Origin: Lachnospiraceae bacterium
GTDB taxonomy: Bacteria; Bacillota; Clostridia; Lachnospirales; Lachnospiraceae
Direction of reading: 5' to 3'
DNA length: 64,000 nucleotides
Assembly (NCBI GenBank): GCA_029012365.1
Contig: JAQXLY010000038.1
Span: 1-64,000 of the forward strand
Program-made: the position numbers and the translations under genes
Part shown: one piece after another, positions 32,229 through 37,383 of the stretch
Layout: every line of letters starts with the position of its first letter
Numbering within the stretch: the first letter of the stretch is position 1
Notes under the pieces: model-generated
What the model saw: only the letters and a program-made list of their open reading frames with translations
Database searches by the model: none
What the model was told of the DNA's origin: nothing

Positions 32229-32275
32229 ATTAATAATCTTACTAATTTTCAGGCAATATGAAAGGAGTTTTATCC

Positions 32276-33682
32276 ATGTTTCAGATTAAGCTTTCCGACC
32301 CGGTTTCGGTTCACTTTATCGGCATTGGCGGCATCAGCATGAGTGCACTTGCGGAGCTTTTACACAGACAGGGGTTTCGTGTCAGCGGTTCTGATTTGAA
32401 GTCCACCTCTATTACGTCTCATCTTGAGGAGCTTGGGATTACCATATTTTACACACAGCAGGCCTCAAATATTCCTGCAGACTGTTCCGTAGTCATTTAC
32501 ACCGCCGCCGTACACGCCGACAATCCGGAGCTTTCACGGGCTGTCGAGCTTGGACTTCCTGTTCTGGAACGAAAGGATCTGCTTGGTCAGATTATGACAC
32601 AGTATCTTCACGTGGCCGGAATTGCCGGCTCTCACGGCAAAACAACTACCACCTCTATGCTTTCTCTTATGCTTTTGGAGGGAGGACTCGACCCGACCGT
32701 TTTAGTCGGAGGAGTCTTAGACGGCATCGGCGGCAATCTCCGCATGGGTTCTTCCGATTATCTGGTAGCCGAAGCCTGTGAATACTGCAACAGTTTCTTA
32801 AGCTTTCATCCGACCGACGCAATTATATTAAATATAGAAGCGGAACACCTTGATTTTTTCCGTGACCTTGAGGATATTCGCCACTCCTTCCGCAAATACG
32901 CACAAATTCTGCCCGCATCCGGCACACTGGTAATAAACGGTGACATAGAACGGCTTTCCGAGCTGACCGAAATGCTTCAGGCAAATGTAGTCACCTACGG
33001 TCTGTGCGATACTCCGGAACAATGTACGGACTACGATTACGCGGCATCGGATATTTCCTTTGACGCAAACGGATTCGGCAGCTACGACCTTTACCGAAAC
33101 GGCAGCTTGCTTGGCAGAATCATGTTACATGTTATTGGTACCCACAATATTTCCAACTCCGTTGCGGCGGCAGCTCTCGCCCTGTCCTACGGTGTCTCTT
33201 TTGAGGCGGTTTCCTCCGCATTGCGGAAATACACCGGTACAAAGCGCCGTTTTGAATACAAGGGACTGGTAAACGGTATCCGTGTTTACGACGATTATGC
33301 CCATCACCCATCCGAGATAGCGGCAACCTTGCAGGCCGCACGTGCCTGTGTTTCCGGACAGCAGAAGCTCTGGTGCCTGTTCCAGCCTCACACCTTTTCC
33401 CGTACCAAAGCCTTTTTGCATGAATTTGCGGAAGCACTTTCTCACGCAGATTCCGTTGTTCTGGCAGACATTTACAGTGCCTCCAGAGAAAAAGATCCGG
33501 GAGACATTTCTTCTGCCGATATTGCGGTTCTTCTAAAAGAAAAAGGTAAAGATGTTTACCATTTTCACAGTTTTGAGGAAATCGAAAAATATTTATTGGC
33601 AAATTGCCGACAGGGAGATTTGTTGATAACTATGGGGGCGGGTGACATTGTTAACGTAGCCGAATCCTTGATTTCAATCTAG
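32276..33682 (+). CDS. murC: UDP-N-acetylmuramate--L-alanine ligase
   Basis: VHFIGIGGISMSALAELLHRQGFRVSGSD, AGSHGKTTTTSML, VYDDYAHHPSEIAATLQAAR, LFQPHTFSRTK. Confidence 0.97.
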   Translation: MFQIKLSDPVSVHFIGIGGISMSALAELLHRQGFRVSGSDLKSTSITSHLEELGITIFYTQQASNIPADCSVVIYTAAVHADNPELSRAVELGLPVLERKDLLGQIMTQYLHVAGIAGSHGKTTTTSMLSLMLLEGGLDPTVLVGGVLDGIGGNLRMGSSDYLVAEACEYCNSFLSFHPTDAIILNIEAEHLDFFRDLEDIRHSFRKYAQILPASGTLVINGDIERLSELTEMLQANVVTYGLCDTPEQCTDYDYAASDISFDANGFGSYDLYRNGSLLGRIMLHVIGTHNISNSVAAAALALSYGVSFEAVSSALRKYTGTKRRFEYKGLVNGIRVYDDYAHHPSEIAATLQAARACVSGQQKLWCLFQPHTFSRTKAFLHEFAEALSHADSVVLADIYSASREKDPGDISSADIAVLLKEKGKDVYHFHSFEEIEKYLLANCRQGDLLITMGAGDIVNVAESLISI

Positions 33683-33873
33683 TTATCCACATTATCCACA
33701 ACCTTATCAACATTTTTTGTTTGAAAAGGTTGTGGATTTCTTTTTTCAAAAAACATTTTTCTACAAAAATAGACCTACAAAAGTAGAACGTGGTTTTTTA
33801 AGACTTCCCCGCTTTTTTTTCTTTTTTTTCACAATCGCAGATATTTTTTTCCACATTATCCACACTATCCACA
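33683..33873 (+). promoter_or_regulatory. cluster of DnaA boxes upstream of dnaD
   Basis: TTATCCACA at 33683-33691, 33692-33700 and 33856-33864; one-mismatch copies TTATCAACA 33704-33712, TTTTCCACA 33847-33855, CTATCCACA 33865-33873; A/T-rich stretch between. Confidence 0.7.
33694..33745 (+). terminator. murC rho-independent terminator
   Basis: ATCCACAACCTT (33694-33705) / AAGGTTGTGGAT (33726-33737) followed by TTCTTTTTT. Confidence 0.75.
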
Positions 33874-33900
33874 AGCAATTCCCTTTCATCCACGCCCAAA

Positions 33901-33928
33901 TTGCAATTTCCTAAAAATATGCTATACT
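33901..33928 (+). promoter_or_regulatory. dnaD promoter
   Basis: TTGCAA (33901-33906), 16 nt, TATACT (33923-33928). Confidence 0.65.
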
Positions 33929-33976
33929 CAGGGTAACGATTTTGCCCGGACACGGGTAGCTTGAGGAGGAATCCCT

Positions 33977-35083
33977 ATGGACGGAATCTCAGTATATTCC
34001 GAAGACACAAGAACCACTCTGGTTCCAAATGAATTCATTGATTATTATATGCCTCGTGCCAACGGCACCTTTGTTAAGGTTTATCTTTACCTGCTTCGCT
34101 GCCTGTCAGCTCCCGAAGCCGGTTTTGGTATCAGCGTCATTGCCGATGCCTTAGAGGAAACCGAAAAGGATATTCTGCGTGCGCTTCGCTACTGGGAGCG
34201 TGAAAAAGTGCTTTCCCTGACCTGGGGAGAAGCAGATGAAATCCGCGGAATTAAATTAAACCGCTTATCCAGACCGGATACTGTTACCGGTTCCGCAGAT
34301 GTTTCCGCGCGTTGTGCGGTACAGACTGCCGGGCAAGCCTTCGTATCCGACACGGATAAAGCTGCATCCCTTTCTGAAAAAAAGAATACTCCGGCAAAGA
34401 TTCCGGAATATTCCCCGGCGCAGCTGGAAGCCTTTGCCGATTGTCAGGATACCAAATGGCTGCTTCATGCAGCGGAAGGATATCTGGAACGTATGTTAAA
34501 ACCGACGGATGTACAGCTCCTGTTCTTTTTACACGACGAGCTTCATTTTTCCAATGAACTGATTCTTCATCTTTATGAATATTGCGTGTCCCGTGGCAAA
34601 AAGGCACCTTCCTATATTCTGAAGGTAGCGCTTTCATGGCATGAGGACGGAATCGATACGGCAGAGAAGGCGGAGGAGCGCTCTTTACAGTTTGACTCCT
34701 GTTTTACCGCGGTCAACCGGGCATTTGCATTAAATCGGGCTCCAGGCATTTCCGAGCGCCGCTTTCTAAATCGCTGGAGTTCCTTCGGCTTTTCCTCAGA
34801 TATAATCGAGGAAGCCTGCAGCCGTGCTCTTCTTTCCACCTCTCATCCGGATTTTAAATATGCGGACAAGATTCTGGAACGCTGGCATCAAAATAATGTA
34901 CATACCATGTCCGACGTAAAAAAGCTGGATGAGGCACATAACGCACGTATCCCGCAGGGACAAGCCGTCGGTGTAAGACGTGCGGACAACAACCGGTTCA
35001 ACTCGTTTCCGCAGAGAGATTACTCCGGCAATGACCTTACGGATCTCGAAAATGCGCTGTTAGCCAGACCGGCTTCCCGTTAG
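33977..35083 (+). CDS. DnaD-domain replication initiation protein
   Basis: N-terminal wHTH-like region (FVKVYLYLLRCLSAPEAGFGISVIADAL...RALRYWEREKVL) and C-terminal DnaD-like helical repeats (YADKILERWHQNNVHTMSDV). Confidence 0.88.
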   Translation: MDGISVYSEDTRTTLVPNEFIDYYMPRANGTFVKVYLYLLRCLSAPEAGFGISVIADALEETEKDILRALRYWEREKVLSLTWGEADEIRGIKLNRLSRPDTVTGSADVSARCAVQTAGQAFVSDTDKAASLSEKKNTPAKIPEYSPAQLEAFADCQDTKWLLHAAEGYLERMLKPTDVQLLFFLHDELHFSNELILHLYEYCVSRGKKAPSYILKVALSWHEDGIDTAEKAEERSLQFDSCFTAVNRAFALNRAPGISERRFLNRWSSFGFSSDIIEEACSRALLSTSHPDFKYADKILERWHQNNVHTMSDVKKLDEAHNARIPQGQAVGVRRADNNRFNSFPQRDYSGNDLTDLENALLARPASR

Positions 35084-35098
35084 AGAAGGAGATTACCC

Positions 35099-36097
35099 AT
35101 GCACCAGGAAGAACAATATTATAATCGTCTGCTTCGCAGCTACGAGGAAACCAGAGTCCGTCACCTGCATGAGCAGAAGCTAAAGCGTGAGGAAATATAC
35201 GCAAAGCTCCCGGTTCTGGCCGAACTTGACCGTAAGCTTGCCTCGGATTCCGTTTCGGCTGCCCGTGCCGCCTTAGACGGAGATACCGCGGCACTTGAGC
35301 AGCTTTCCGAAAATAATAGGAAGATTTCCTCGCAAAAGACACAGATACTGCAATCGGCAGGATACCCCGCTGATTGTCTGGAGCTTACGTATACCTGTCC
35401 CGATTGTAAGGACACCGGATTTATCGGACAGGAAAAATGCCACTGCTTTAAGCAGGCGCTTACTCTTGCACTTTCCGAAAATTCCACTCTGAGTCATCTT
35501 CTGGAAAAGGAAAACTTCGACACATTTTCCTTTTCCTATTATGATGATTTGACAGCCGATACCCAGTTACAAATTACCCCCCGTGCAAACATCCGCAAAA
35601 TCGTTGCCGATGCCAGACAATTTGTGAACGAATTTGACACGGTCTGCCGCAGCCTGTTGATTTACGGAAATACCGGTGTCGGAAAAACATTTCTCACAAA
35701 CTGCATTGCAAAGGCTCTGATGGACACTGCCCACCATGTTGTTTATATGACCTCTCATGCACTGTTTGAAGCGTTCGAGGCGCACCGCTTTGAACATGCG
35801 GAGCAGCCTGAGAGTTCCATTCTTTACCACTATATTTTTCACTGTGATTTATTAATTATTGATGATTTGGGAACCGAGCTTTCCAATACCTTTACCAATT
35901 CCATGCTGTACACCTGTATTAACGAACGGCAGCTTCACAGAAAGTCTACCGTTATTTCCACAAACCTCTCTTTAGAACAGCTTCGCGATCGTTACAGCGA
36001 ACGCATTTTTTCCCGTATAACAGGGAACTATACTTTATGGAAGCTTATCGGAAAGGATATCCGGGTGCTGAAGCGCATGGAAGAAGTGCGTCGCTGA
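35099..36097 (+). CDS. helicase loader, DnaC/DnaI-like AAA+ ATPase
   Basis: Zinc-finger-like CPDCKDTGFIGQEKCHC, GNTGVGKTFLTNCIAKAL Walker A, LLIIDDLGTE Walker B. Confidence 0.92.
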   Translation: MHQEEQYYNRLLRSYEETRVRHLHEQKLKREEIYAKLPVLAELDRKLASDSVSAARAALDGDTAALEQLSENNRKISSQKTQILQSAGYPADCLELTYTCPDCKDTGFIGQEKCHCFKQALTLALSENSTLSHLLEKENFDTFSFSYYDDLTADTQLQITPRANIRKIVADARQFVNEFDTVCRSLLIYGNTGVGKTFLTNCIAKALMDTAHHVVYMTSHALFEAFEAHRFEHAEQPESSILYHYIFHCDLLIIDDLGTELSNTFTNSMLYTCINERQLHRKSTVISTNLSLEQLRDRYSERIFSRITGNYTLWKLIGKDIRVLKRMEEVRR

Positions 36098-36132: not shown

Positions 36133-36161
36133 TTGACAAAGCACTCTTGTCATAGTATGAT
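36133..36161 (+). promoter_or_regulatory. prs promoter
   Basis: TTGACA (36133-36138), 17 nt, TATGAT (36156-36161). The ORF-track TTG start at 36133 lies in this -35 box. Confidence 0.7.
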
Positions 36162-36207
36162 ATTTAACGCAAAAACACTATTTCACACAAAATCGGAGGA
36201 AAAGATT

Positions 36208-37383
36208 ATGCCACTTCAAGAAGATTATGTTGCAACCGTGCCGGTAGGCAAACTGGGGATTATTGCCTTAGAGAGCTGCCGTGAGCTGGGGCAGAAAATC
36301 AATAACTACCTTGTAGAATGGAGAACAGCACGCATTCATGAGGTGCATACTCCTACGGTTTTATTCGACGGTTATCAGAGAGAGTCATATCTGGTTGATT
36401 CTAAATGTCCCCGTTTCGGTTCCGGTGAAGCAAAGGGGATTATCAAGCAGTCCGTCCGCGGTGACGACCTGTATATTCTTGTTGATGTGTGTAACTATAA
36501 TTTAACTTATACTGTTCGCGGTGAAATCAGCCATATGTCCCCGGATGATCATTTTCAGGATTTGAAGCGTGTGATTGCCGCTGCCGGCGGAAAAGCGCAC
36601 CGTATCACGGTGATTATGCCGTATCTGTACGAAAGCCGTCAGGATAAGAGAAGCTCCAGAGAGTCCTTAGACTGTGCCGTTGCTTTGCAGGAGCTTGTAA
36701 ACCTCGGAGTAGAGAGTATTATTACCTTTGACGCGCACAATCCGAGCGTGCAGAATGCTATCCCGTTAAAAACCTTCGAGACAGTACCGCCTACATACCA
36801 GTTTGTTAAGGCGCTGCTTCGTACCACTCCGGATTTGATTGCAGATCCGGCTCACCTTATGGTCATCAGCCCCGATGAAGGCGGTATGGGACGCGCGGTT
36901 TATTTTGCGAATTCCCTTGGGGTAGATGTCGGCATGTTTTATAAACGTCGCGACTATTCTACCATTGTTGACGGCCGCAACCCGATTGTTGCACACGAAT
37001 TCTTAGGTGCCGATGTAGAGGGAAAGGATGTTGTTATTATCGATGACATGATTTCCTCCGGTGACAGCATGATTCATACAGCAAGGGAATTAAAGGAACG
37101 TAAGGCAAATCGTATCTTTATCTGTGCTACCTTCGGTCTGTTTACAAACGGACTGGCAAAATTTGATGAAGCATATGAGGCAGGGTGGATTACAAAGGTG
37201 ATTACCACCAACCTGATTTACCAGCCGGACGAGCTGTTTGCCAGACCGTACTATGAAAATGCCGACATGAGCAAGTATATCGCTCTTTTGATTGATGCAT
37301 TAAACCACGACGGTTCCATCAGCGAATATTTGAATCCGTCCGCACGCATTCAGCAGCTTTTGAAAAAGCACGAAAAGCGTTAA
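36208..37383 (+). CDS. prs: ribose-phosphate pyrophosphokinase (divergent long form)
   Basis: MPLQEDYVATVPVGKLGIIAL...; KDVVIIDDMISSGDSMIHTARELKERKANRIFICATFGLFTNG PRPP-binding loop. Start set to ATG at 36208. Confidence 0.88.
   Translation: MPLQEDYVATVPVGKLGIIALESCRELGQKINNYLVEWRTARIHEVHTPTVLFDGYQRESYLVDSKCPRFGSGEAKGIIKQSVRGDDLYILVDVCNYNLTYTVRGEISHMSPDDHFQDLKRVIAAAGGKAHRITVIMPYLYESRQDKRSSRESLDCAVALQELVNLGVESIITFDAHNPSVQNAIPLKTFETVPPTYQFVKALLRTTPDLIADPAHLMVISPDEGGMGRAVYFANSLGVDVGMFYKRRDYSTIVDGRNPIVAHEFLGADVEGKDVVIIDDMISSGDSMIHTARELKERKANRIFICATFGLFTNGLAKFDEAYEAGWITKVITTNLIYQPDELFARPYYENADMSKYIALLIDALNHDGSISEYLNPSARIQQLLKKHEKR

Follow-up and report, generated by a model that had tools for sequence, protein, structure and literature searches.

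The 294-bp gap that separates murC from a dnaD-like replication initiation gene in this Lachnospiraceae bacterium is quite probably a DnaA-dependent looped regulatory element of the dnaD-dnaI (helicase loading) operon. This reading is based on sequence comparison, and it is strengthened by two helical-phase relations, one between two arrays of DnaA boxes and the other between the nearer array and the dnaD promoter. The gap lies in a 64 kb window, the whole stretch of DNA analysed, in which murC, the gap, the dnaD-like gene, a dnaI/dnaC-like gene and a PRPP synthetase gene follow one another on the + strand. Matches to TIGR01082, to the DnaD/DnaB_2 domain and to DnaC/DnaI-like ATPases confirmed the flanking genes as the original prediction had named them. 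The features of the locus, in window coordinates, are the following:

32258-33682, + strand: murC (UDP-N-acetylmuramate--L-alanine ligase), upstream neighbour; ORF with NCBIfam match TIGR01082 (470.5 bits)
33621-33629, − strand: inverted DnaA box TTATCAACA within the 3' end of murC; array 1 follows 62 bp downstream
33683-33712, + strand: array 1, TTATCCACA-TTATCCACA-acc-TTATCAACA, with a 9-bp pitch and then a 3-bp gap; its first base directly follows the murC stop codon
33694-33737, + strand: intrinsic terminator of murC, with a 12-bp stem ATCCACAACCTT/AAGGTTGTGGAT and, behind it, a T-rich tail (fold −22.1 kcal/mol, z −5.8)
33713-33846, no strand: A/T-rich spacer, proposed DNA loop; arrays 1 and 2 are here 164 bp apart, start to start
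33759-33788, no strand: TTCTACAAAAATAGACCTACAAAAGTAGAA, a dyad in the spacer whose putative function is suggested by its resemblance to BlaI/MecI operators (CTAC-N4-GTAG)
33847-33873, + strand: array 2, TTTTCCACA-TTATCCACA-CTATCCACA, promoter-proximal, with a 9-bp pitch
33901-33928, + strand: predicted dnaD promoter from a consensus scan, −35 TTGCAA, 16-bp spacer and extended −10 TGcTATACT
33963-33969: ribosome binding site gaggagg of the dnaD-like gene
33977-35083, + strand: dnaD-like replication initiation gene (DnaB_2/DnaD domain; Pfam PF07261, TIGR01446), first in the operon
35099-36097, + strand: dnaI/dnaC-like helicase-loader ATPase gene (NF005304, 369 bits; Bac_DnaA and IstB AAA+ domains), second in the operon
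36133-37383, + strand: PRPP synthetase gene (prs-like; NF005299, 585 bits), next and co-directional, a putative member of the operon

DnaA boxes of the murC-dnaD gap and their conservation

Exact TTATCCACA boxes were located at 33683-33691, 33692-33700 and 33856-33864, all on the + strand, and every box within the gap has this same orientation. These three are the only exact copies in the 64 kb window, for which 0.59 were expected (the original prediction had calculated about 0.5), and three or more were reached by 1 of 100 shuffles. One-mismatch boxes abut or adjoin the exact ones, TTATCAACA at 33704-33712, TTTTCCACA at 33847-33855 and CTATCCACA at 33865-33873. The box scan thus bore out both the three exact boxes with their one-mismatch copies and the abutting direct repeats that had been placed at 33683-33700 and 33847-33873, the former extending in fact to 33712. 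The tandem 18-mer, searched with at most one mismatch, gave only three matches in the 2.89 Mb assembly, all of them at murC-dnaD. The exact consensus TTATCCACA points to DnaA as the protein that would bind the arrays.

A dnaD relative was present in 248 of 248 genomes of the family, and the sequence upstream was read for 255 dnaD genes. From these, a sample of 222 gaps was taken in which murC was adjacent and the gap measured at least 100 bp, the own genus being counted once. These gaps contained 536 exact boxes, whereas dinucleotide shuffles gave 1.7, and 347 abutting pairs, whereas the shuffles gave none. Allowing up to one mismatch, 945 boxes were on the + strand and 127 on the − strand. 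The original prediction depended on the boxes being conserved upstream of orthologous dnaD genes, and an abutting pair was found in 182 of the 222 gaps. The 40 remaining gaps without such a pair, together with one clade with a single array, indicate that the loop is not universal. In most relatives the murC stop and the start of array 1 are no more than a few bases apart, and the layout is also alike. Boxes that lie upstream of a promoter and are conserved with its gene are what characterizes a DnaA-regulated promoter, and at murC-dnaD both were found, in a lineage-specific manner. When the dnaD upstream regions of 30 genomes from other orders of the class were inspected, none had abutting boxes and dnaD was not seen beside murC. 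Within its own order, the distribution of the element over the other families is patchy. As a consequence, on the sample examined the element belongs to one order, Lachnospirales, the named relatives being Lachnospiraceae. The pattern of two boxes, 46-76 bp and TGnTATAAT gave no match in 293 genomes of the class, but since it fits only 41 of 231 known loci, this absence carries little weight.

Array 1 has a second use, which the original prediction had not mentioned. It forms the 5' arm of the murC terminator, whose stem is built on its second and third boxes, and a matching 3' arm with a T-rich tail was present in 124 of the 187 relatives having a box there. This role can account for part of the conservation of array 1, and the second box being inside the stem could even suggest that array 1 is nothing else than a terminator and its box-like sequence incidental. 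However, the first box is outside the stem, array 1 is in helical phase with array 2 (see below) and silent sites of the inverted murC box are under constraint as well, all of which makes this explanation very improbable. The inverted box, which that prediction had likewise not mentioned, is shared by 173 of 221 relatives within the final 110 nt of murC, and 140 of them have it exactly at −62 relative to array 1. Its codons, TTG-ATA-ACT, were used in 152 of 212 Leu-Ile-Thr ('LIT') triplets, while the codon background of murC is 10%, 17.5% and 22%, respectively. Such a distance from the background indicates that the inverted box is constrained as DNA. As regards the spacer, the TTCTACAAAAATAGACCTACAAAAGTAGAA dyad is kept with few changes in all 10 genomes of the genus and not across the family, where one further locus matches. 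Elsewhere in the same genome there are a few sites like it. The BlaI/MecI-like dyad is not needed for the element.

Abutting DnaA boxes were also observed at other places. A second conserved locus is about 230-470 bp upstream of hpf, which encodes the ribosome hibernation factor, where 21 of 30 genomes of the family have such boxes, in most cases accompanied by one more box or pair some 53 bp farther upstream. In the genome of the window itself exact boxes are at −424 and −371; the loci concerned are G000:C61:20522-21046 (L425), L101 and L415-L444. DnaA may control ribosome hibernation in this family as well. In several complete relatives (L102, L103, L091 and L092) abutting boxes are flanked by an NlpC/P60-SH3 protein gene and a DUF1858-like/MecA-like gene pair, these names having been given by eye from the L102 and L092 translations.

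Position of the locus with respect to the origin of replication

A cluster of DnaA boxes, a property that the locus shares with oriC, and A/T-rich DNA upstream of replication genes could both be taken as signs of a second or dormant origin of replication, and an origin-like element had been the alternative in the original prediction. However, the GC skew is negative or about zero almost throughout the window and does not change sign at 33.7 kb. The DnaA C-terminal domain was not found in the own assembly (67 contigs, the window being contig 38; 92% complete). The proposed check of locating dnaA and computing the cumulative skew was run in relatives and, in four of them, the minimum fell at dnaA (3,496,266, 1,631,687, 1,169,730 and 1,059,864, measured on stretches of 400, 400, 260 and 140 kb) and not at murC-dnaD, which is located within one arm at distances of 126, 195, 87 and 46 kb from dnaA. 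In addition, the boxes beside dnaA in relatives are mixed in orientation and spacing, unlike the murC-dnaD arrays. The absence of a skew flip and the minimum at dnaA led us to reject oriC at this site, and a further origin here is hardly credible.

The locus is nevertheless origin-proximal. In 12 of 12 relatives in which both genes could be placed on one contig, dnaD is about 46-390 kb from dnaA, with genome sizes partly rounded, and points toward dnaA/oriC. In the window, the segment 32014-37383 with murC-dnaD-dnaI-prs opposes the prevailing direction of genes and replication, and the GC skew is locally weaker. One relative (L075, G161, about 721.4-723 kb) carries very many exact boxes flanking the C-terminal part of dnaA, far above the other members examined.

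Helical phase between the arrays and with the dnaD promoter

For measuring the spacing between arrays a fixed rule was used, in which consecutive runs of at least two + strand boxes at 9-bp pitch were taken as arrays and distances were read from start to start. In the discovery set (48 loci) the Rayleigh statistic peaked at 11.2 bp, with R=0.64 and a phase of 9.1 bp. The prediction was recorded before 140 further loci were fetched, and the 64 non-duplicate new loci, which constituted the test set, gave R(11.2)=0.64 with a phase of 9.3 bp, against 9.1 bp in discovery (Rayleigh p~4e-12). Counting each distance once, R was 0.55 (p~3e-5). Spacings accumulate near 88, 99, 110, 121, 131, 143, 155.5, 166.5, 176.5 and 188 bp and the valleys are nearly empty. 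Bootstrapping of 118 loci yielded a period of 11.3 bp (95% 11.15-11.4). Gain or loss of 9-bp boxes was rejected as the cause of this comb, since R(9) is low and the comb is unchanged when only two-box arrays are considered (R=0.67).

Shared descent was dealt with by a tree built from MurC C-termini. In 43 species pairs on separate branches whose spacings differ by at least 6 bp, the mean cosine was 0.44 versus 0.03 under the null (P=5e-5), and it was 0.55 for differences of at least 12 bp. It was 0.48 when 9- and 18-bp differences were removed (P<=5e-5) and 0.46 with two-box arrays only (P=0.00035). Restriction of the spacing between two sites to whole helical turns is the mark of a DNA-looping element, and this restriction was found here. 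For LacR loops in living Escherichia coli, repeats of 11.08 or 11.60 bp per turn were fitted, longer than in relaxed DNA because of negative supercoiling (PMC1762422). The period of 11.15-11.4 bp falls inside this range. With the phylogenetic comb, a helical repeat of about 11.3 bp can be read off natural sequences alone.

The second relation concerns the promoter. The −10 box TATACT is at 33923-33928, preceded by TG, and TTGCAA begins at 33901. From the end of array 2 there are 27 bp to the −35 box, as the original prediction had it, and 49 bp to the −10 box. TGn stands ahead of the −10 box in 115 of 118 relatives, a figure to be read with the fact that the consensus scan used to call promoters gives credit for TG at this position; the −35 box is weak. 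The distance from the end of array 2 to the −10 box is 49-50, 57-60, 66-71 or 78-80 bp in most loci. This gave R=0.84 at 10.4-10.5 bp, the sharpest signal of the whole analysis, with a bootstrap period of 10.3 bp (10.1-10.5). The comb persists with two-box arrays only, and the MurC-tree pairs gave 0.61 versus −0.05 expected. As negative control, the distance from array 2 to the dnaD start codon showed no period (R=0.05). Many loci with fewer boxes that retain array 2 follow the same steps to the −10 box, and a short-gap clade has a single array at 52-54 bp from it. Since this clade keeps the array adjacent to the promoter, the promoter-proximal array would be the core of the element and array 1 an added, looped partner. 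The promoter comb becomes blurred (best period 9.0) if loci lacking two clear runs are pooled with the others, because the short-gap clade differs in its offset, which is 52-54 bp.

These data bear directly on the other half of the original prediction, a DnaA titration or inactivation site that would soak up DnaA soon after the origin fires, control of dnaD being incidental. Many strong boxes at one place, outside oriC and origin-proximal, are what defines titration clusters such as the DBCs or datA; the locus has them, close to dnaA and oriC-pointing in all 12 relatives, and deletion of six Bacillus subtilis clusters outside oriC causes early initiation (PMC13220808). However, if the arrays only soaked up DnaA, their phase relative to the dnaD −10 box would not have to be fixed, whereas R=0.84 was obtained, and the short-gap clade gives up array 2 and retains an array beside the promoter. 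Titration is possible as a by-product; alone it does not account for the promoter phasing, and we regard it as an unlikely main function. The evidence supports the view that the two phase relations are explained well only by a nucleoprotein complex acting on the dnaD promoter. The regulatory role that had been predicted is in this way favoured by the conservation and by both the array-array and the array-promoter phases.

Proposed mechanism and comparison with known systems

In the mechanism that we propose, DnaA would bind the two same-strand, abutting box arrays. On array 2, placed 49-80 bp upstream of the −10 box and on a fixed helix face, it would touch RNA polymerase in a class-I-like manner, from a position at about −61, −71, −82 or −92 of an extended −10 promoter with a weak −35. 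DnaA-DnaA contacts would join array 1 to array 2 through a small DNA loop of about 8-17 turns, as the spacing comb suggests, and this loop would work only with both arrays on the same helix face. The same phase could also arise if DnaA formed a continuous filament, or if some other protein linked the two arrays.

The sign of the regulation has to be weighed separately. In looped repression, DnaA on both arrays would keep the dnaD promoter shut until a shortage of DnaA or the passage of the fork freed it. Repressors are the classic example of looping proteins, and DnaA represses ywlC, vpr and other genes of B. subtilis (PMC4447404). Nevertheless, both arrays end before the −35 box, clear of the core promoter, array 2 is positioned at the one-turn steps that are typical of upstream activators, and an extended −10 is combined with a weak −35 in this promoter. 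Repression is consequently the less favoured option, and a rather doubtful one. Activation would be likelier, because array 2 would contact RNA polymerase from a class-I-like place. The likely role of an activating loop would be to match primosome supply to active DnaA. DnaD could possibly feed back on its own promoter, since DnaD of B. subtilis counteracts the cooperativity of DnaA; in works cited in PMC4447404 and PMC7561715 it is reported to reduce this cooperativity and to be recruited to DnaA-bound regions.

Several known systems share part of this arrangement. DnaA of B. subtilis is a direct activator of sda and a repressor of several genes (PMC4447404; PMC8203912). The sda promoter also has a DnaA-box array upstream, and distant boxes are needed for its full activation (PMC4447404); however, its target is different, and in the open-licence literature we did not find described for it either a two-array, same-strand layout at 9-bp pitch or a helical phase. 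The oriC-proximal DBCs of B. subtilis (Okumura et al., 2012, as cited in PMC13220808 and PMC5295017) are likewise box clusters outside oriC, and DnaD and DnaB are reported at DnaA-bound regions, according to the title of Smits et al. (2011). In contrast, the role proposed for the DBCs is titration, and the listed sets of directly regulated genes do not include dnaD. The datA and DARS sites of E. coli are DnaA-box clusters outside oriC too, although datA needs IHF and acts on the nucleotide state of DnaA (PMC5295017), with no phase tie to a helicase-loader promoter. Looped operators of AraC and LacI tolerate whole-turn spacings in the same way, with an in vivo repeat of 11.1-11.6 bp for LacR (PMC1762422), but in our case the loop would be made by the replication initiator, and the evidence comes from evolution, not from engineered constructs. 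Finally, the bipartite oriC of Clostridioides difficile and B. subtilis combines two DnaA-box clusters with A/T-rich DNA and a proposed loop (PMC7561715), yet it is located at dnaA, whereas the murC-dnaD element is elsewhere and off the skew minimum.

DnaA is known as a transcription factor, and in the open-licence literature we found no described case of control of the DnaD-DnaI loader through phased, looped arrays. The Lachnospiraceae are a major gut family whose control of initiation appears, in that same literature, little studied. As a tentative picture for the Lachnospirales, held with much less confidence than the regulatory element itself, DnaA might switch on its own helicase-loading operon via a small, supercoiling-sensitive loop between the two arrays of abutting boxes. 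The fork would meet the origin-proximal arrays head-on, so that each round of initiation would reset the loop, and DnaD would feed back by loosening DnaA cooperativity.
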